From NCBI RefSeq assembly GCF_021044935.1, contig NZ_JAJNMP010000001.1, forward strand, positions 682,001 to 746,000: 64,000 nucleotides of DNA, read 5' to 3'. Of this stretch, positions 11,801 through 60,507 are shown in pieces. The notes under the pieces are model-generated. The model worked only from the letters and a program-made list of their open reading frames with translations, was not told the DNA's origin and did not search any database. Each line of letters opens with the position of its first letter. Within the stretch, counting starts at the first letter, position 1. A program made the translations under genes and the position numbers. The DNA comes from Agromyces cavernae. Its GTDB lineage: Bacteria; Actinomycetota; Actinomycetes; Actinomycetales; Microbacteriaceae.

Positions 11801-12271
11801 CAGCCGCTGCTGCTGCTCGTGTCGGTGCCGTTCGCGGCGACGGGTGCGATCGTACTGCAGGTCATCACGGGGATTCCGCTCGGCGTCGCGTCGCTCGTGG
11901 GCGTGCTCATGCTCGTCGGCATCGTGGTGACGAACGCGATCGTGCTCGTCGACCTCGTGAACCAGTACCGCGACCGGGGCATGAACGTGCGCGACGCGCT
12001 CGTGCACGGGTCATCCCGACGTCTGCGGCCGATCCTGATGACCGCGCTCGCGACGATCTTCGCGCTGCTGCCCATGGCGCTCGGCATCACCGGCACCGGC
12101 GGGTTCATCTCGCAGCCGCTCGCGCTCGTCGTGATCGGCGGACTCGTCTCGTCGACCGCGCTCACGCTGGTCGTGCTCCCGGTGCTGTACGACCTCGTCG
12201 AGGGCGGGCGCGAGCGGCGGCGAGCCAAGCGCGAGGCGAAGGTCGCCGCCGCCGCGACGCCGGTCGAGTAG
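8816..12271 (+). CDS. RND superfamily efflux transporter (AcrB/SwrC-like)
   Basis: 1151 residues with the 12-segment RND plan: a first membrane helix (RALIALITVVVAIFGG), a large external loop, five helices from about residue 378, an insert, then the repeated half. The fourth helix carries GRVVDDSIVVIENI, with Asp442 and Asp443 matching the proton-relay aspartates of AcrB. The pore-domain sequence TSYPGASPDIVNTDVSTPIE is typical of the AcrB/HAE1 branch, not the mycobacterial MmpL branch. A disordered Ala-rich cytoplasmic insert lies at about residues 545-625. No adaptor or outer-membrane gene adjoins, as in Bacillus SwrC. The final Val-Glu-TAG lies in a family A repeat. Substrate unknown. Confidence 0.93.
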   Translation: MHLLAALSMKNRALIALITVVVAIFGGISLTSLKQELAPSIAFPQLSIVTSYPGASPDIVNTDVSTPIETAIQGITGLESTSTTSSTGLSRVTASFTYGTDLAFAEQKLLSSVNRIAGQLPEDVDPQVIALSLDDFPVLQVAVTGVDDISSLSDEIERTTLAEITDVDGVRDATLIGEIGQRVTITPDPAQLAAFGITQQAIRDALAQNGLLVPAGSITEGDSTFAVQTGTRLGSVDEIAELPVIGATEQQPAPDAAEGGEGVEVVPDAGSGFPGVEGAVDVPATVTVPVAATISDVATVELADNPVTSISRVDGEPALTISVTKLPAANTVEVSNAVTALLPDLEASLDTTNPGASFTVVFDQAPYIEQSIESLATEGLLGLLFAVLVILVFLLSVRATLVTAISIPTSVLIAFIGLQAADYTLNILTLGALTIAIGRVVDDSIVVIENIKRHLVEGVDKAATIVHAVREVAGAITASTITTVAVFLPLALVEGVTGELFRPFAFTVTIALVASLLVSLTIVPVLAYWFLKPAKLHKHEDEAELAAAAFVDDVWLAPELRGPDGETGLGRPGAVDAASARPAAADATVAAPADAPVPAVATATADGPHAGGASDRPARAGTVDELEHPSRLQRGYLPIIEWTLKHGVVTIIVAVLILAGTVALTPLMKTNFLGSSGQNTFQVSQVLPVGTSLDAMDAASEPVEDAIRGTEGVEIVQTSIGTGSSPLAAAFGGGGATITYSVTTDEDADQEALQASVRESVDELDDVGEVTLTAASGFGASNDIEVDITASNAEDLQTATDAVVDELGGVDSVTQVTSNLSESRPYIAVEVNRADAAAAGYSEVALGGIVSAAMQPQTAGSVVIDEKTLTIYLASENPPTTIATLSALEVPTPTGVVRLDTLATVAEVDGPASVTTAQGLRSATVSATPAGDDLGTASAEVSSSVATVDLPAGTTASLGGVTADQTESFSQLGIALLAAILIVYIVMVATFRSLLQPLLLLVSVPFAATGAIVLQVITGIPLGVASLVGVLMLVGIVVTNAIVLVDLVNQYRDRGMNVRDALVHGSSRRLRPILMTALATIFALLPMALGITGTGGFISQPLALVVIGGLVSSTALTLVVLPVLYDLVEGGRERRRAKREAKVAAAATPVE

Positions 12272-12328
12272 CGAAGCGTATCGAGACCTGTGCGTGGTCT
12301 CGATACGGCGCTTCGCGCCTACTCGACC
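12262..12328. repeat. Palindromic interspersed element, family A, spanning two convergent stop codons
   Basis: Left arm GGTCGAGTAG...GTATCGAGACC, 7-nt loop, right arm GGTCTCGATAC...CCTACTCGACC. Both ends are used as coding sequence: the plus-strand RND gene ends GTC GAG TAG at 12271, and the minus-strand sigma gene ends GTC GAG TAG at 12319. The hairpin of roughly 27 bp per arm could terminate transcription from both sides. Confidence 0.92.
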
Positions 12329-26291: not shown

Positions 26292-27860
<1,569 letters not shown>

Positions 27861-27965
27861 AAGCTTCCGTTCGGGTCGTCGGTCGCACTCGACGGGTCGG
27901 GTCTCCGCTCGACTCAGAACAGTCTGACATCGCCCGCGCAGGGTCACAACACCCAACTGGGGGGT

Positions 27966-27982
27966 CCCGAACCCTGTTCGGG
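27966..27982. terminator. Hairpin between hutH and the M23 peptidase gene
   Basis: CCCGAAC and GTTCGGG form a perfect 7-bp stem around a CCT loop, extended by flanking G and C runs. It lies about 65 bp beyond the hutH stop and upstream of the peptidase promoter. No T run follows, so terminator function is only likely. Confidence 0.5.
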
Positions 27983-28047
27983 GGGCACTCGGCGCAACGA
28001 TCGGACGCGCCGTCGAGCGAACGGATGCCGCATCGCGGCGAGACTCG

Positions 28048-29697
28048 TCAGTCGAGCGGCCCGACCACGGCTGCCGCCCGAGCGGCCACCTCACCCGACG
28101 CCACGGCCTCGGCGAGCGCCTCGATCTCGGGCGAGAGGAACCGGTCGGGTCCCGGCACGGCGCCGGCGTCGGCTGCGAGCGTGACGACCGCGCCGGTCGC
28201 GGCGCCCGGCTCGAGCGGTGCGCGCAGTGCGAGCCCGCGCGCGGCCGTCATGACCTCGATCGCGAGCACGCGCCCGAGCCCGTCGATCGCGCGCCGCAGC
28301 TTGCGTGCGGCCGCCCAGCCCATCGAGACGTGGTCTTCCTGCATCGCCGACGACGGGATGGAGTCGACCGACGCCGGCACCGCGAGCCGCTTCAGCTCCG
28401 ACACGATGCCCGCCGCCGTGTACTGCGCGATCATGAGGCCGGAGTCCACGCCGACCTCGTGGGCGAGGAACGGCGGCAGGCCCTGGTTGCGGGCGCGGTC
28501 GAGGAAGCGGTCGGTGCGCCGCTCGCTCATCGACGCGACATCCGCGACCGCGATCGCCAGGAAGTCGAGCACGTAGGCGACCGGTGCGCCATGGAAGTTG
28601 CCGTTCGACTCGACGCGTCCGTCGAGGGTGAGCACCGGGTTGTCGACGGCGCTCGCGAGCTCGGCCTCGGCGACGGATGCCGCGTGGGCGAGCGTGTCGC
28701 GCGCTGCGCCGTGCACCTGCGGGGCGCAGCGCAGCGAGTACGCGTCCTGCACGCGCGTGCACTCAGGGCCCTTGTGGCTCGCCACGATGGGAGATTCGGC
28801 GAGCAGGCGCCGCAGGTTCGAGGCCGAGACGGCCTGGCCGCGCTGGGGGCGCAGGGCGTGCAGGTCTTCGGCGAACACGGCGTCGGTGCCCATGAGGCCC
28901 TCGACGCTCATCGCCGCGGCGATGTCGGCGGTGGTGAGCAGCAGGCGCAGGTCATCGATCGCGAGTGCGAGCATTCCGAGCATGCCGTCGGTGCCGTTGA
29001 TGAGGGCGAGGCCCTCTTTCTCGCCGAGGCGCAGGGGGGTGATGCCGGCTGCGGCGAGCGCATCCTTCGCGGGTTGAGGAGCGCCCGACGCAGGACGCGT
29101 CTCGAAACCAGCCCGCGCGGGCGCCGGGGTTTCGAGACGGCGCTGGCGCGCCTCCTCAACCAGCGGAGTGACACGCACCTCGCCCTCGCCCATCGCCACG
29201 AGCGCGCAGTGCGCGAGCGGCGCGAGATCGCCCGAGCAACCGAGCGAGCCGTACTCGCGCACGACCGGCGTGATGCCGGCGTTGAGGATCGCCGCGTACG
29301 TCTCCGCGGTCTCGCGCCGCACGCCCGTGCGACCGGTCATGAGCGTCGAGAGGCGCAGCAGCATGAGCGCGCGCACGACCTCGGTCTCGACCTCGGCGCC
29401 CGAGCCGGCGGCGTGCGAGCGCACGAGGCTCGCCTGCAGCTGCGCGCGGCGGTCTTCGGCGATGAACGTCGTCGCGAGCGCACCGAAGCCGGTCGAGATG
29501 CCGTAGTGCGGCTCGGGGTCGGCGGCGAGCGCCTCGATGATCTCGCGGCTCGCGGCGACGCCGTCGAGGGCCGCCGGGTCGAGCACGACGGATGCGCCGT
29601 GCCGCGCGACCGCGACGACGTCGGCGATCGAGACGGGTCCGGTGCCCACGGTGACGGATGTCGCAACGGGGCTGGGTGCAGGTGCGATGGTGCTCAT
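28048..29697 (-). CDS. hutH: Histidine ammonia-lyase with in-frame palindromic element insertion
   Basis: 549 residues against a usual length near 510. [17 protein letters not shown] carries Cys154-Ser155-Gly156, the triad expected to cyclise to the MIO group; Cys in place of Ala is common in actinobacterial HutH as far as I recall. YGISTGFG near residue 65 and [18 protein letters not shown] after residue 230 are further signatures. The enzyme deaminates histidine to urocanate. Residues about 179-209 ([20 protein letters not shown] and onward) correspond exactly to a 90-bp palindromic repeat and have no place in the family alignment. The operator at 29752 precedes the gene by 54 nt. Confidence 0.95.
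29072..29161. repeat. Family A palindromic element inserted in frame within hutH
   Basis: The 90-bp element starts GGTTGAGGAG and ends CTCCTCAACC, with inner arms GTCTCGAAACC and GGTTTCGAGAC. Its right 34 bp match the half copy at 60474 at 29 positions. In this copy the outer TAG of the family reads GAG, so the hutH frame stays open. Confidence 0.92.
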
Positions 29698-53843: not shown

Positions 53844-54583
53844 TGGGCGAGACCCAGCTGCTCGTCGAGCGGCGCGACGACCGCGTCGTGGCGACCCTCA
53901 ACCGGCCCGCCGTGCGCAACGCGATCGACCAGGCCACGATCGACGCGCTGCACGTGCTGTGCGCCGAACTCGAGGCGATCCCGCGCACGCTCATCCTCAC
54001 GGGCGCGGGCGGCGTCTTCGCGTCGGGTGCCGACATCGCCCAGTTGCGCGAACGGCGAGCGGATGACGCGCGCCGAGGCATCAACGCACAGGCGTTCATT
54101 CGCGTGGCCGAACTGCCGATGCCCGTCATCGCCGCCCTCGACGGATACGCGCTCGGCGGCGGCGCCGAGCTCGCGTACGCGGCCGACATCCGCATCGCCA
54201 CGCCCGCGCTCAAGATCGGGAACCCCGAGCCCGGGCTCGGGATCATCGCCGCCGCCGGAGCGAGCTGGCGGCTGCGCGAGATCGTCGGCGAGGCCCGCGC
54301 GGCCGAACTGCTGCTCACCGGGCGCACCATCGGAGCCGCCGAGGCGCACGAGATCGGGCTCGTGAGCGAACTGCACCCCGCCGACGAACTGCTGCCCGCC
54401 GCGCACGCCATCGCCGATCGCATCGGCCGCAACGACCGCGCCGCGACGATCGCGACCAAGCGCGTGATGCGGGCGCCGCGAGCCGCGCACCCCGCCGTCG
54501 ACCTCGACGAGCAGGCCGTGCTGTTCGAGAGCCCCGAGAAGATGCGGCGCATGACCGAGTTCCTCGAGAGGAAGCAGAAGTGA
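53843..54583 (+). CDS. paaF: Enoyl-CoA hydratase/isomerase, PaaF-like
   Basis: 246 residues beginning MGETQLLVERRDDRVVATLN. Crotonase signatures are TGAGGVFASGADIAQLRE (oxyanion hole), DGYALGGGAELAYAADIRIA and GNPEPGLGIIAAAGASWRL with the catalytic Glu region. In this operon it would hydrate 2,3-dehydroadipyl-CoA. Only one crotonase is present, so the PaaG isomerase function must be encoded elsewhere or shared. The start overlaps the stop of the duplicated ORF, and the end overlaps the next gene as GTGA. Confidence 0.88.
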   Translation: MGETQLLVERRDDRVVATLNRPAVRNAIDQATIDALHVLCAELEAIPRTLILTGAGGVFASGADIAQLRERRADDARRGINAQAFIRVAELPMPVIAALDGYALGGGAELAYAADIRIATPALKIGNPEPGLGIIAAAGASWRLREIVGEARAAELLLTGRTIGAAEAHEIGLVSELHPADELLPAAHAIADRIGRNDRAATIATKRVMRAPRAAHPAVDLDEQAVLFESPEKMRRMTEFLERKQK

Positions 54584-55497
54584 GCGAGCACCCCGTCGGT
54601 CGAGGAGCGCCCGACGAAGGAGGACGCGTCTCGAGACCCGCGACCGGCGCCCCGGCAGACGTCGGCGTGCTCGGCGGCGGGCGCATGGGCGCGGGCATCG
54701 CGCACGCGTTCCTGCTCGCCGGATCGCGGGTCACCGTCGTCGAGCGGGACGCCGCCGCTGCCGGCGCCGCGGCGACGCGGGTACGGGAGTCGGTCGAGGC
54801 GTCGATCGCGCGCGGCACCGCCGACGACGACGCCGTGACGCTCGCCTCTCGCTTCGCGACGAGCACGGCCGTCAGCGACTTCGCCCGCTGCGACCTCGTG
54901 GTCGAGGCCGTGCCCGAAGACCTCGAGCTGAAGATCGACGCCCTCACGCGCGTCGAGTCGGTGCTCGCGCCCGGCGCGGCGCTCGCCTCGAACACCTCGT
55001 CGATCTCGATCGACCAGCTCGCCGCCCTGCTCGATCGCCCCGACCGGTTCCTCGGGATGCACTTCTTCAACCCCGTGCCCGCGTCGACGCTCGTCGAGAT
55101 CGTGCGGGGCGGGGCTTCCGCCGCTTCGCTCGTCGACGACGCGCGCGAGTGGGTGCGGGCGATCGGCAAGACGCCCATCGTCGTCGCCGACGCTCCCGGA
55201 TTCGCGTCGTCGCGGCTGGGAGTCGCGCTCGGGCTCGAGGCGATCCGCATGCTCGAAGACGGCGTCGCGTCGGCCGAGGACATCGACGCGGCGATGACGC
55301 TCGGGTACAAGCATCCGGTCGGGCCGCTGCGGCTCACCGACATCGTCGGACTCGACGTTCGGCTCGGCATCGCCGAGTACCTCGCCTCGACGCTCGGCGA
55401 GCGGTTCGCGCCGCCCGCACTGCTGCGCCGCATGGTCGCCGAGGGCAGGCTCGGTCGCAAGACCGGCGAGGGCTTCTACACATGGGACGCGCAATGA
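54580..55497 (+). CDS. paaH: 3-hydroxyacyl-CoA dehydrogenase, PaaH-like, with repeat-derived N-terminus
   Basis: 305 residues from a GTG at 54580. The NAD-binding fold begins at VGVLGGGRMGAGIAHAFLLAG; the active site includes NTSSISIDQLAA and GMHFFNPVP (catalytic His), and PGFASSRLGVALGLEAIRMLEDGVAS is the C-terminal domain opening. It should oxidise 3-hydroxyadipyl-CoA. Residues 7-20 (GRGAPDEGGRVSRP) are encoded by a half copy of the family A palindromic element, giving an N-terminal extension absent from the family. Confidence 0.9.
   Translation: MSEHPVGRGAPDEGGRVSRPATGAPADVGVLGGGRMGAGIAHAFLLAGSRVTVVERDAAAAGAAATRVRESVEASIARGTADDDAVTLASRFATSTAVSDFARCDLVVEAVPEDLELKIDALTRVESVLAPGAALASNTSSISIDQLAALLDRPDRFLGMHFFNPVPASTLVEIVRGGASAASLVDDAREWVRAIGKTPIVVADAPGFASSRLGVALGLEAIRMLEDGVASAEDIDAAMTLGYKHPVGPLRLTDIVGLDVRLGIAEYLASTLGERFAPPALLRRMVAEGRLGRKTGEGFYTWDAQ
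54598..54638. repeat. Half copy of palindromic element family A at the start of paaH
   Basis: GGTCGAGGAGCGCCCGACG followed by GACGCGTCTCGAGACC matches the left arm of the hutH insertion (GGTTGAGGAGCGCCCGACG, then GACGCGTCTCGAAACC). The right arm is missing. It lies entirely in coding sequence. Confidence 0.85.
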
Positions 55498-60473: not shown

Positions 60474-60507
60474 GGTCTCGATACGGCGCCGGCGCGCCTA
60501 CTCGACC
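60474..60507. repeat. Half copy of palindromic element family A
   Basis: The right arm from GGTCTCGATAC to CCTACTCGACC is present alone. Its end supplies Val-Glu-TAG to the oxidoreductase gene on the minus strand, in the same way as at 12319. Confidence 0.9.

Follow-up and report, generated by a model that had tools for sequence, protein, structure and literature searches.

Results

The hutH gene and the palindrome in its coding sequence

The window, that is, the whole stretch of 64,000 nucleotides that was analysed, contains on its minus strand (positions 28048-29697) the hutH gene, coding for a histidine ammonia-lyase of 549 amino acids. This protein scored above the cut-offs of the NCBIfam models PRK09367 (672.6 bits) and hutH TIGR01225 (614.4 bits) and was the single match at E <= 1e-50 in the source genome of the window (G000, 4.07 Mb). 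The ORF located downstream (26292-28094, minus strand) was found by eye to code for a Thr-Pro repeat of great length, after which comes a C-terminal domain of peptidase-type appearance.

Inside the hutH coding sequence an entire palindromic element was delimited at 29069-29164, a stretch of 96 bp or 32 codons' length with the outer flank counted in (3 bp at either end). It is composed of two inverted units, both belonging to the subfamily 2 described below, which are separated by an 18-bp linker (29110-29127). The first unit (38 bp, 29072-29109, minus strand; pattern match G000:C2:711072-711109:-; nhmmer E 3e-9) is the 3' one in the gene, and the second unit (34 bp, 29128-29161, plus strand; pattern match G000:C2:711128-711161:+) is the 5' one. 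The initial annotation had placed the arm GGTTGAGGAG at 29072 and the arm CTCCTCAACC with its end at 29161, and both the arms and their coordinates were correct; its assignment of HutH residues 179-209 to the palindrome follows from the start of the gene at 29697.

A repeat search extended the outer arms of the palindrome to 29065-29081 and 29152-29168, with 88% complementarity, and gave a perfect inner pair at 29098-29109 and 29128-29139. The consensus of the outer flank beyond the ends of subfamily 2 was C-R-C (78 units); the left flank of the HutH element fits this consensus (C-G-C read outward) and the right one deviates from it (A-G-C). The DNA of the palindrome folded with a z value of -4.1 against 200 shuffles, one of which folded equally well. 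When the 90-bp stretch of hutH was searched against the genome, with 40 of 151 candidates scored, at least 95 matches were obtained (E <= 10), many of them being one palindrome matched on both strands. This count and that of the exact-ended units given below lie far above what chance would produce.

The repeat family in the genome

Two subfamilies of exact-ended units were defined in the G000 genome, subfamily 1 (GGTCTCGATACG...CTACTCGACC) with 100 copies and subfamily 2 (GGTTTCGAGACG...CTCCTCAACC) with 79 copies, which gives at least 179 exact-ended units, and none was found with the reversed-pattern controls. A third end combination (C-G with G-C) was present in 15 copies in the fetched stretches, and a free-ended pattern matched 216 times in the whole genome. 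Exact units were 24-48 bp long, mostly 33-35 and 41 bp, and the 179 units were arranged in 127 clusters, 79 single, 44 double and 4 triple.

Pairing at the ends is conserved by covariation: in the fetched stretches, 196 of the 198 units showed Watson-Crick pairs at position 4/-4, with two pair types, and the same number and the same diversity of pair types were found at position 9/-9. The variable inner hairpin also pairs with itself (2.99 of 4; mean 1.83 and maximum 2.07 in 1000 shuffles). The inverted order seen in HutH was shared by 50 of the 62 neighbouring unit pairs (within 60 bp), 45 of these 50 having a gap of 5-19 bp. Consequently, the family displays the features of REPs in the broad sense, which are an imperfect palindrome of 20-40 bp with conserved end pairing, a high copy number and inverted dimers. 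The first stem letters of the units were GG, and an outer CGYC was observed in subfamily 1 only (CGTC in about half of the cases), other letters being present in subfamily 2.

Four further sites were listed in the window. Inverted unit pairs, neither of them called in-frame, were located at 2442-2515 (2442-2475 minus, 2480-2515 plus), where the sister species G019 has no unit, and at 12262-12328 (12262-12288 minus, 12296-12328 plus), where G019 carries, as judged by eye, a subfamily-2-like pair. A single 41-bp unit with the third end-type (GGTC..GAGA..CTCC..GACC) was found at 54598-54638 on the minus strand and is absent from G019. The single subfamily 1 unit at 60474-60507 (plus strand) is the copy that had been cited initially for its likeness to the right 34 bp of the HutH element, and 29 of the 34 positions indeed match. 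The right-hand HutH unit was, moreover, letter-identical to five further copies in the fetched stretches.

The change from TAG to GAG that the initial annotation described at the end of the HutH copy was a misreading, since the 79 exact units of this type in the genome end in CTCCTC/GAGGAG. The GAG is a subfamily trait: the frame used in HutH contains a TAG stop in subfamily 1 and GAG in subfamily 2.

The HutH loop in related bacteria

The length of the loop was measured between the GEG motif, which we take to lie just after the MIO loop, and the next G-[LIVM]-A motif of HutH. It was 56 residues in the G000 protein. Of the 80 HutH loci in the named collection, 69 have exactly 30 residues there and none has more than 37. 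The insertion of additional residues that had been proposed at the outset was thus upheld, although the net gain is 26 residues rather than about 30, and the orthologues carrying the same residues with no palindrome that would speak for another origin were not encountered among these 80 loops. These data confirm an in-frame palindromic insertion in HutH. Comparison with the Pseudomonas putida enzyme gave 6 residues versus 33 in HutH between two aligned parts.

A profile made from 99 distinct units was used to scan 130 HutH loops (50 same-genus and 80 named). Matches at E < 1e-4 were found only in G000, G057, G028, G012 and G055, with a marginal match in G019 (E 0.036), and none of the 80 named-collection loops, A. 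binzhouensis (L061) and A. kandeliae (L062) included, had a unit match below E = 1. The loops of these two named Agromyces records are identical to those of the same-genus genomes G011 and G024, which makes Agromyces very probably the genus of G000. Within the genus the loop varies from 29 to 94 residues, as would be expected if the segment were just an ancestral variable loop of HutH with a coincidental palindrome. This explanation has practically no probability, given loop unit matches down to E 3e-9, their absence from the named collection and a 34-mer that is identical at five other places.

A HutH match at E <= 1e-50 was obtained in 57 of the 60 same-genus genomes, and all 57 proteins were included in a HutH tree. 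Five of the 57 were unit-positive at E < 1e-3, and the fewest changes that account for them on the tree, a quick one with many open forks that does not separate gain from loss, were five; they were counted as at least four lineages because G028 and G012 share one unresolved fork. The unit translation reads GRVAT.ERIET or GRVAPAEPSRIET in the four other species, and in G000 another frame and another subfamily are read, so that at least two events are needed even without the tree. In G055 the pair is present as two tandem copies, in a loop of 94 residues.

Two other forms of this loop were observed in the genus. The hutH gene of G059 (L015:2026-2110) contains a different palindrome, with 33-nt arms that are 85% complementary and a 19-nt spacer; a 16-base piece of its arm had no second copy in the fetched sequences with up to 1 mismatch. 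In G009 (L016) the loop is lengthened to 51 residues by a Gly/Ser-rich low-complexity run (GSSGTGGSTGSGGSGGSGAS), which is another route to a longer loop.

The sister species, selection and structure

The species G019 was placed as the sister of G000 in the HutH tree with 99% SH-aLRT support. Its hutH gene keeps both outer ends of the element and lacks 48 bp (16 codons) of the inside, with the frame intact. As the outer ends are kept in the absence of these inner 48 bp, the insertion most likely took place before the split of G000 and G019.

Comparison of both genes outside the loop gave a dN/dS of 0.061 (dS 0.25, 512 codons), so strong purifying selection acts on the insert-bearing HutH. For the 21 insert codons that both genes share, the dN/dS was 0.34, with few changes. 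An AlphaFold model of HutH, calculated with a 30-row alignment, had a mean pLDDT of 81.1 and a pTM of 0.86 and showed an otherwise ordinary HAL fold, with 1gk2 as best PDB match. Residues 184-202, located between the strand 173-176 and the helix 210-216, had pLDDT values under 50, and four further segments of the model were likewise below 50. The enzyme still looks functional despite the lengthened loop.

The insert could also have been put to use as a linker, an interface or a regulatory loop and be kept for its peptide, in agreement with its retention in both sister species and with the recurrent occupation of the same HutH loop and of two ClpC loops. This is very unlikely, because neither the sequence nor the length of the insert is conserved, the sisters differing by 48 bp, and because the dN/dS in the shared insert codons is 0.34 versus 0.061 in the core, small numbers being involved. 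The low confidence of the modelled loop and the 52 of 57 same-genus HutH proteins that have no unit match at E < 1e-3 argue in the same direction. The loop is most likely a passenger around which purifying selection persists.

Copies of the element in other proteins

A cluster was called in-frame when one frame was open through it and a home-made coding score was reached on both sides; weaker candidates just under the coding-score cut-off were left out. The search for translated copies elsewhere that the initial annotation had suggested yielded 19 in-frame clusters among the 127, located inside ORFs of 17 genes, and 108 clusters that were not called in-frame. Family matches were found for 16 of these 17 ORFs, L301 being the one with no family match. 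The 16 proteins are HutH, HemE, a PhnE-type permease (with the unit just ahead of the PhnE part), RecF, a family-4 glycosyltransferase, CofC, an APH/aminotransferase fusion, a NAD/diacylglycerol kinase, a GH42 beta-galactosidase (two places), ClpC, MurB, MenD (two places), MenB, LigD, a LysR regulator and an HrpA-like protein. The last one is a partial ORF in which DUF3418 was above its cut-off and the HrpA models below theirs. The peptide encoded by the LigD copy is almost that of HutH.

Copies that fall outside both exact patterns provided one extra site each in ClpC and HemE, as well as one in an MFS transporter gene (L173). The latter had been flagged by a looser pass over the first 60 stretches, and its copy is not exact-ended; L199, flagged in the same pass, fell below the final coding cut-off and was not counted.

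Alignment gaps in solved homologues were found opposite the second ClpC site, the HemE site, the second MenD site and the MenB site, and the alignment was uneven at the first MenD site. The first ClpC site showed no gap against the Bacillus ClpC, and therefore the copy replaced linker residues there without lengthening the protein. When the profile was scanned against same-genus proteins, at least one unit was detected in 23 of 42 ClpC proteins and a unit in 4 of 30 HemE proteins. The ClpC units were nearly all at two places, 10-15 residues before the MLDKFG motif and 302-322 residues after it, and G023, G028 and G031 have an additional one close to the N-terminus of the fetched portion.

In G000 (L178, C2:30332-31493), five units at four places were found in about 1.2 kb that cover hemE and its neighbour, a gene resembling hemG/hemY by eye, one of these units missing in the sister species. 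In the hemE/hemG region of G019 (L238) an interval of about 146 bp, with what appears by eye as a different long palindrome, is found where G000 has a single 41-bp unit (C2:30645).

Siting, distribution and search for a mobiliser

Gene strands around the 108 clusters that were not called in-frame were inferred from the home-made coding score. With this method, 57 clusters lay between unidirectional genes, 27 between convergent and 2 between divergent ones, 17 were unclear and 5 had no flank. The same unidirectional or convergent siting is reported for REPs in the consulted part of PMC3733652.

That source considers many REPs to be transcribed and to function as RNA, and the siting of the copies that were not called in-frame here agrees with it. 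Together with the strong hairpin of the hutH palindrome (fold z -4.1), this would suit a role as DNA or RNA, such as an mRNA hairpin, a pause or a protein-binding site, with translation as an incidental effect. Such a role is nevertheless highly improbable for an element that is placed in the middle of the gene, where no Rfam family was found at threshold (one match was far below gathering), that has a different palindrome as its counterpart in one other species (G059) and for which most species have no unit match.

A total of 31 of 140 clusters were comparable between G000 and G019. Units present in G000 and absent in G019 were found at window positions 2442 and 54598 and at C2:603699 and C2:769412, and unit-bearing inserts of G019 missing from G000 were found at window positions 53851 and 55501. 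At the second ClpC site a subfamily 1 pair in G000 and a single subfamily 2 unit in G019 occupy the same position. Both genomes are 80-93% identical in long aligned pieces and diverge at the unit sites, being too distant for target-site duplications to be read, and for this reason transposition itself is presumed.

The free-ended pattern was found in 44 of 120 genomes of the taxonomic family (33 of 85 genera), with no match in the other 76 and none for the reversed control. The highest number among these 120 genomes, 623 matches, corresponded to G104 (genus g46). A search for Y1_Tnp/RAYT proteins (PF01797, E <= 0.001), the sole transposase family searched, gave no match in the 60 same-genus genomes, nor in 12 copy-rich genomes of the family; the control search was positive in 5 of the 14 known genomes. 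Plasmids and phages were also considered as carriers, and the 90-base query had no match at E <= 1e-3 in the plasmid and phage collections.

The lack of a Y1_Tnp mobiliser in these 60 and 12 genomes, the different subfamilies at the same ClpC position in G000 and G019, and the nearly equal anchor distance of the ClpC sites in many species, which an old insertion followed by decay and conversion would also explain, could indicate that there is no present transposition. The copies would then stem from a small number of old insertions, having been spread and exchanged through recombination, gene conversion or the horizontal transfer of gene segments that bear the element, and the GRAAAS- or GRVAAS-like stretches found in ClpC in several species without a significant unit could be remnants. 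This scenario is considered rather unlikely, since at least four separate lineages carry the HutH element, with differences in frame and subfamily, the neighbours of these lineages have mostly loops of 30-37 residues without a unit match (with the exception of G009, beside G057), and the four G000 copies named above have no counterpart in G019. Movement of the units by an enzyme acting in trans is the reading adopted below.

Discussion

The extra residues of HutH very probably result from translation of a REP-like palindromic element, mobile and non-autonomous, that is maintained as a passenger in a tolerant loop. The element consists of two units in inverted order (24-48 bp each), which have conserved ends and enclose a variable hairpin, and its family has expanded in Agromyces and in numerous further genera of the taxonomic family. 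Mobilized by a presumed trans-acting enzyme, the copies would land at many places, most of the kept ones lying beside genes, between unidirectional or convergent ones, while a copy that hits a gene would survive only if the frame is kept and a tolerant loop or linker is affected. Selective filtering of this kind may be the sole reason for the in-frame survivors. One pair would have entered the HutH loop, between strand 173-176 and helix 210-216, in the ancestor of the G000 species and G019, and in G019 the inner 16 codons (48 bp) would afterwards have been deleted, for which slippage across the hairpin is the simplest mechanism. We infer this direction of the change, as well as the translation of the insert and the neutrality of the loop.

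A bolder proposal, which is offered tentatively and may well not hold, is that this REP-like family, for which no RAYT was found, works as an active generator of protein loops, moved by an unrecognised enzyme with some landing preference. The same HutH loop would have been reached in at least four lineages within the genus, each time on its own. ClpC would have been entered, almost always at one or the other of two loops, in over half of the species examined, and in a single genome no fewer than 16 recognisable proteins would bear the element.

Rickettsia is the best-known source of protein-coding palindromes, and here they are found in a 4-Mb genome, in enzymes that look like core ones and with dozens of sequenced relatives. 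Natural orthologues with and without the insert are available side by side, and thus the tolerance of proteins to sudden in-frame inserts becomes testable, as do the questions of whether such inserts become useful and what moves REPs without a RAYT. Those who annotate or model proteins of this group should expect extra loops encoded by these units.

Judging by title and beginning of the abstract, none of the open-licence PMC articles listed by the literature searches deals with this repeat in Agromyces or Microbacteriaceae, and in the genome paper of Agromyces aureus (PMC5217419) the word 'palindromic' occurs once, within the CRISPR abbreviation. The phylum lists for tagged REPs in the consulted part of PMC3733652 do not name Actinobacteria. 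The same part mentions untagged REP-like families, for example in Mycobacterium tuberculosis, so that the occurrence of REP-like repeats in Actinobacteria is in itself no novelty.

The GTAG/CGTC REPs described in the extracts of PMC3733652 are hairpins of 20-40 bp, often in inverted dimers, with up to hundreds of copies or more, as in this work. The CGTC REP super-family is marked by an unpaired CGTC tag at one end and by AT pairs at the beginning of the stem. The units differ from it in having a partial CGTC-like tag in subfamily 1 only and stems without initial AT pairs, and from the GTAG REP/RAYT system in that no RAYT was found in the 60 same-genus and 12 family genomes. CGTC REPs, too, have no linked transposase in that account; they are not known to have a dedicated one, and RPE-4 and RPE-6 correspond to them (PMC2229807, PMC10969869, PMC3733652).

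The comparison with Rickettsia palindromic elements made in the initial annotation holds for behaviour. Both are palindromes that occur between genes and in frame in unrelated conserved genes, as far as the consulted sections of PMC2229807, PMC10969869 and PMC3733652 describe them. However, the Rickettsia elements have 105-146 bp (PMC2229807), whereas here high-GC units of 24-48 bp are found in pairs or as singles in an actinobacterium. The element works like a CGTC-type REP or like an RPE, the likeness being a functional analogy.

The enterobacterial RU-1/ERIC, RU-2 and RU-3 are likewise small mobile repeats whose open frames are fused to host ORFs, from the portions of PMC2229807 and PMC2759123 consulted, although they differ in being MITE-like elements of 103-168 bp. 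Intragenic GTAG/CGTC REPs have been described in Opitutus terrae, R. conorii, Xanthomonas recB and others, and over half of the intragenic REPs are dimers or groups encoding 20-30 residues, according to the same portion of PMC3733652. Two insertions in one gene and insertions at the same site in two Xanthomonas recB genes are also reported there, and both situations have their counterpart in the family described here.
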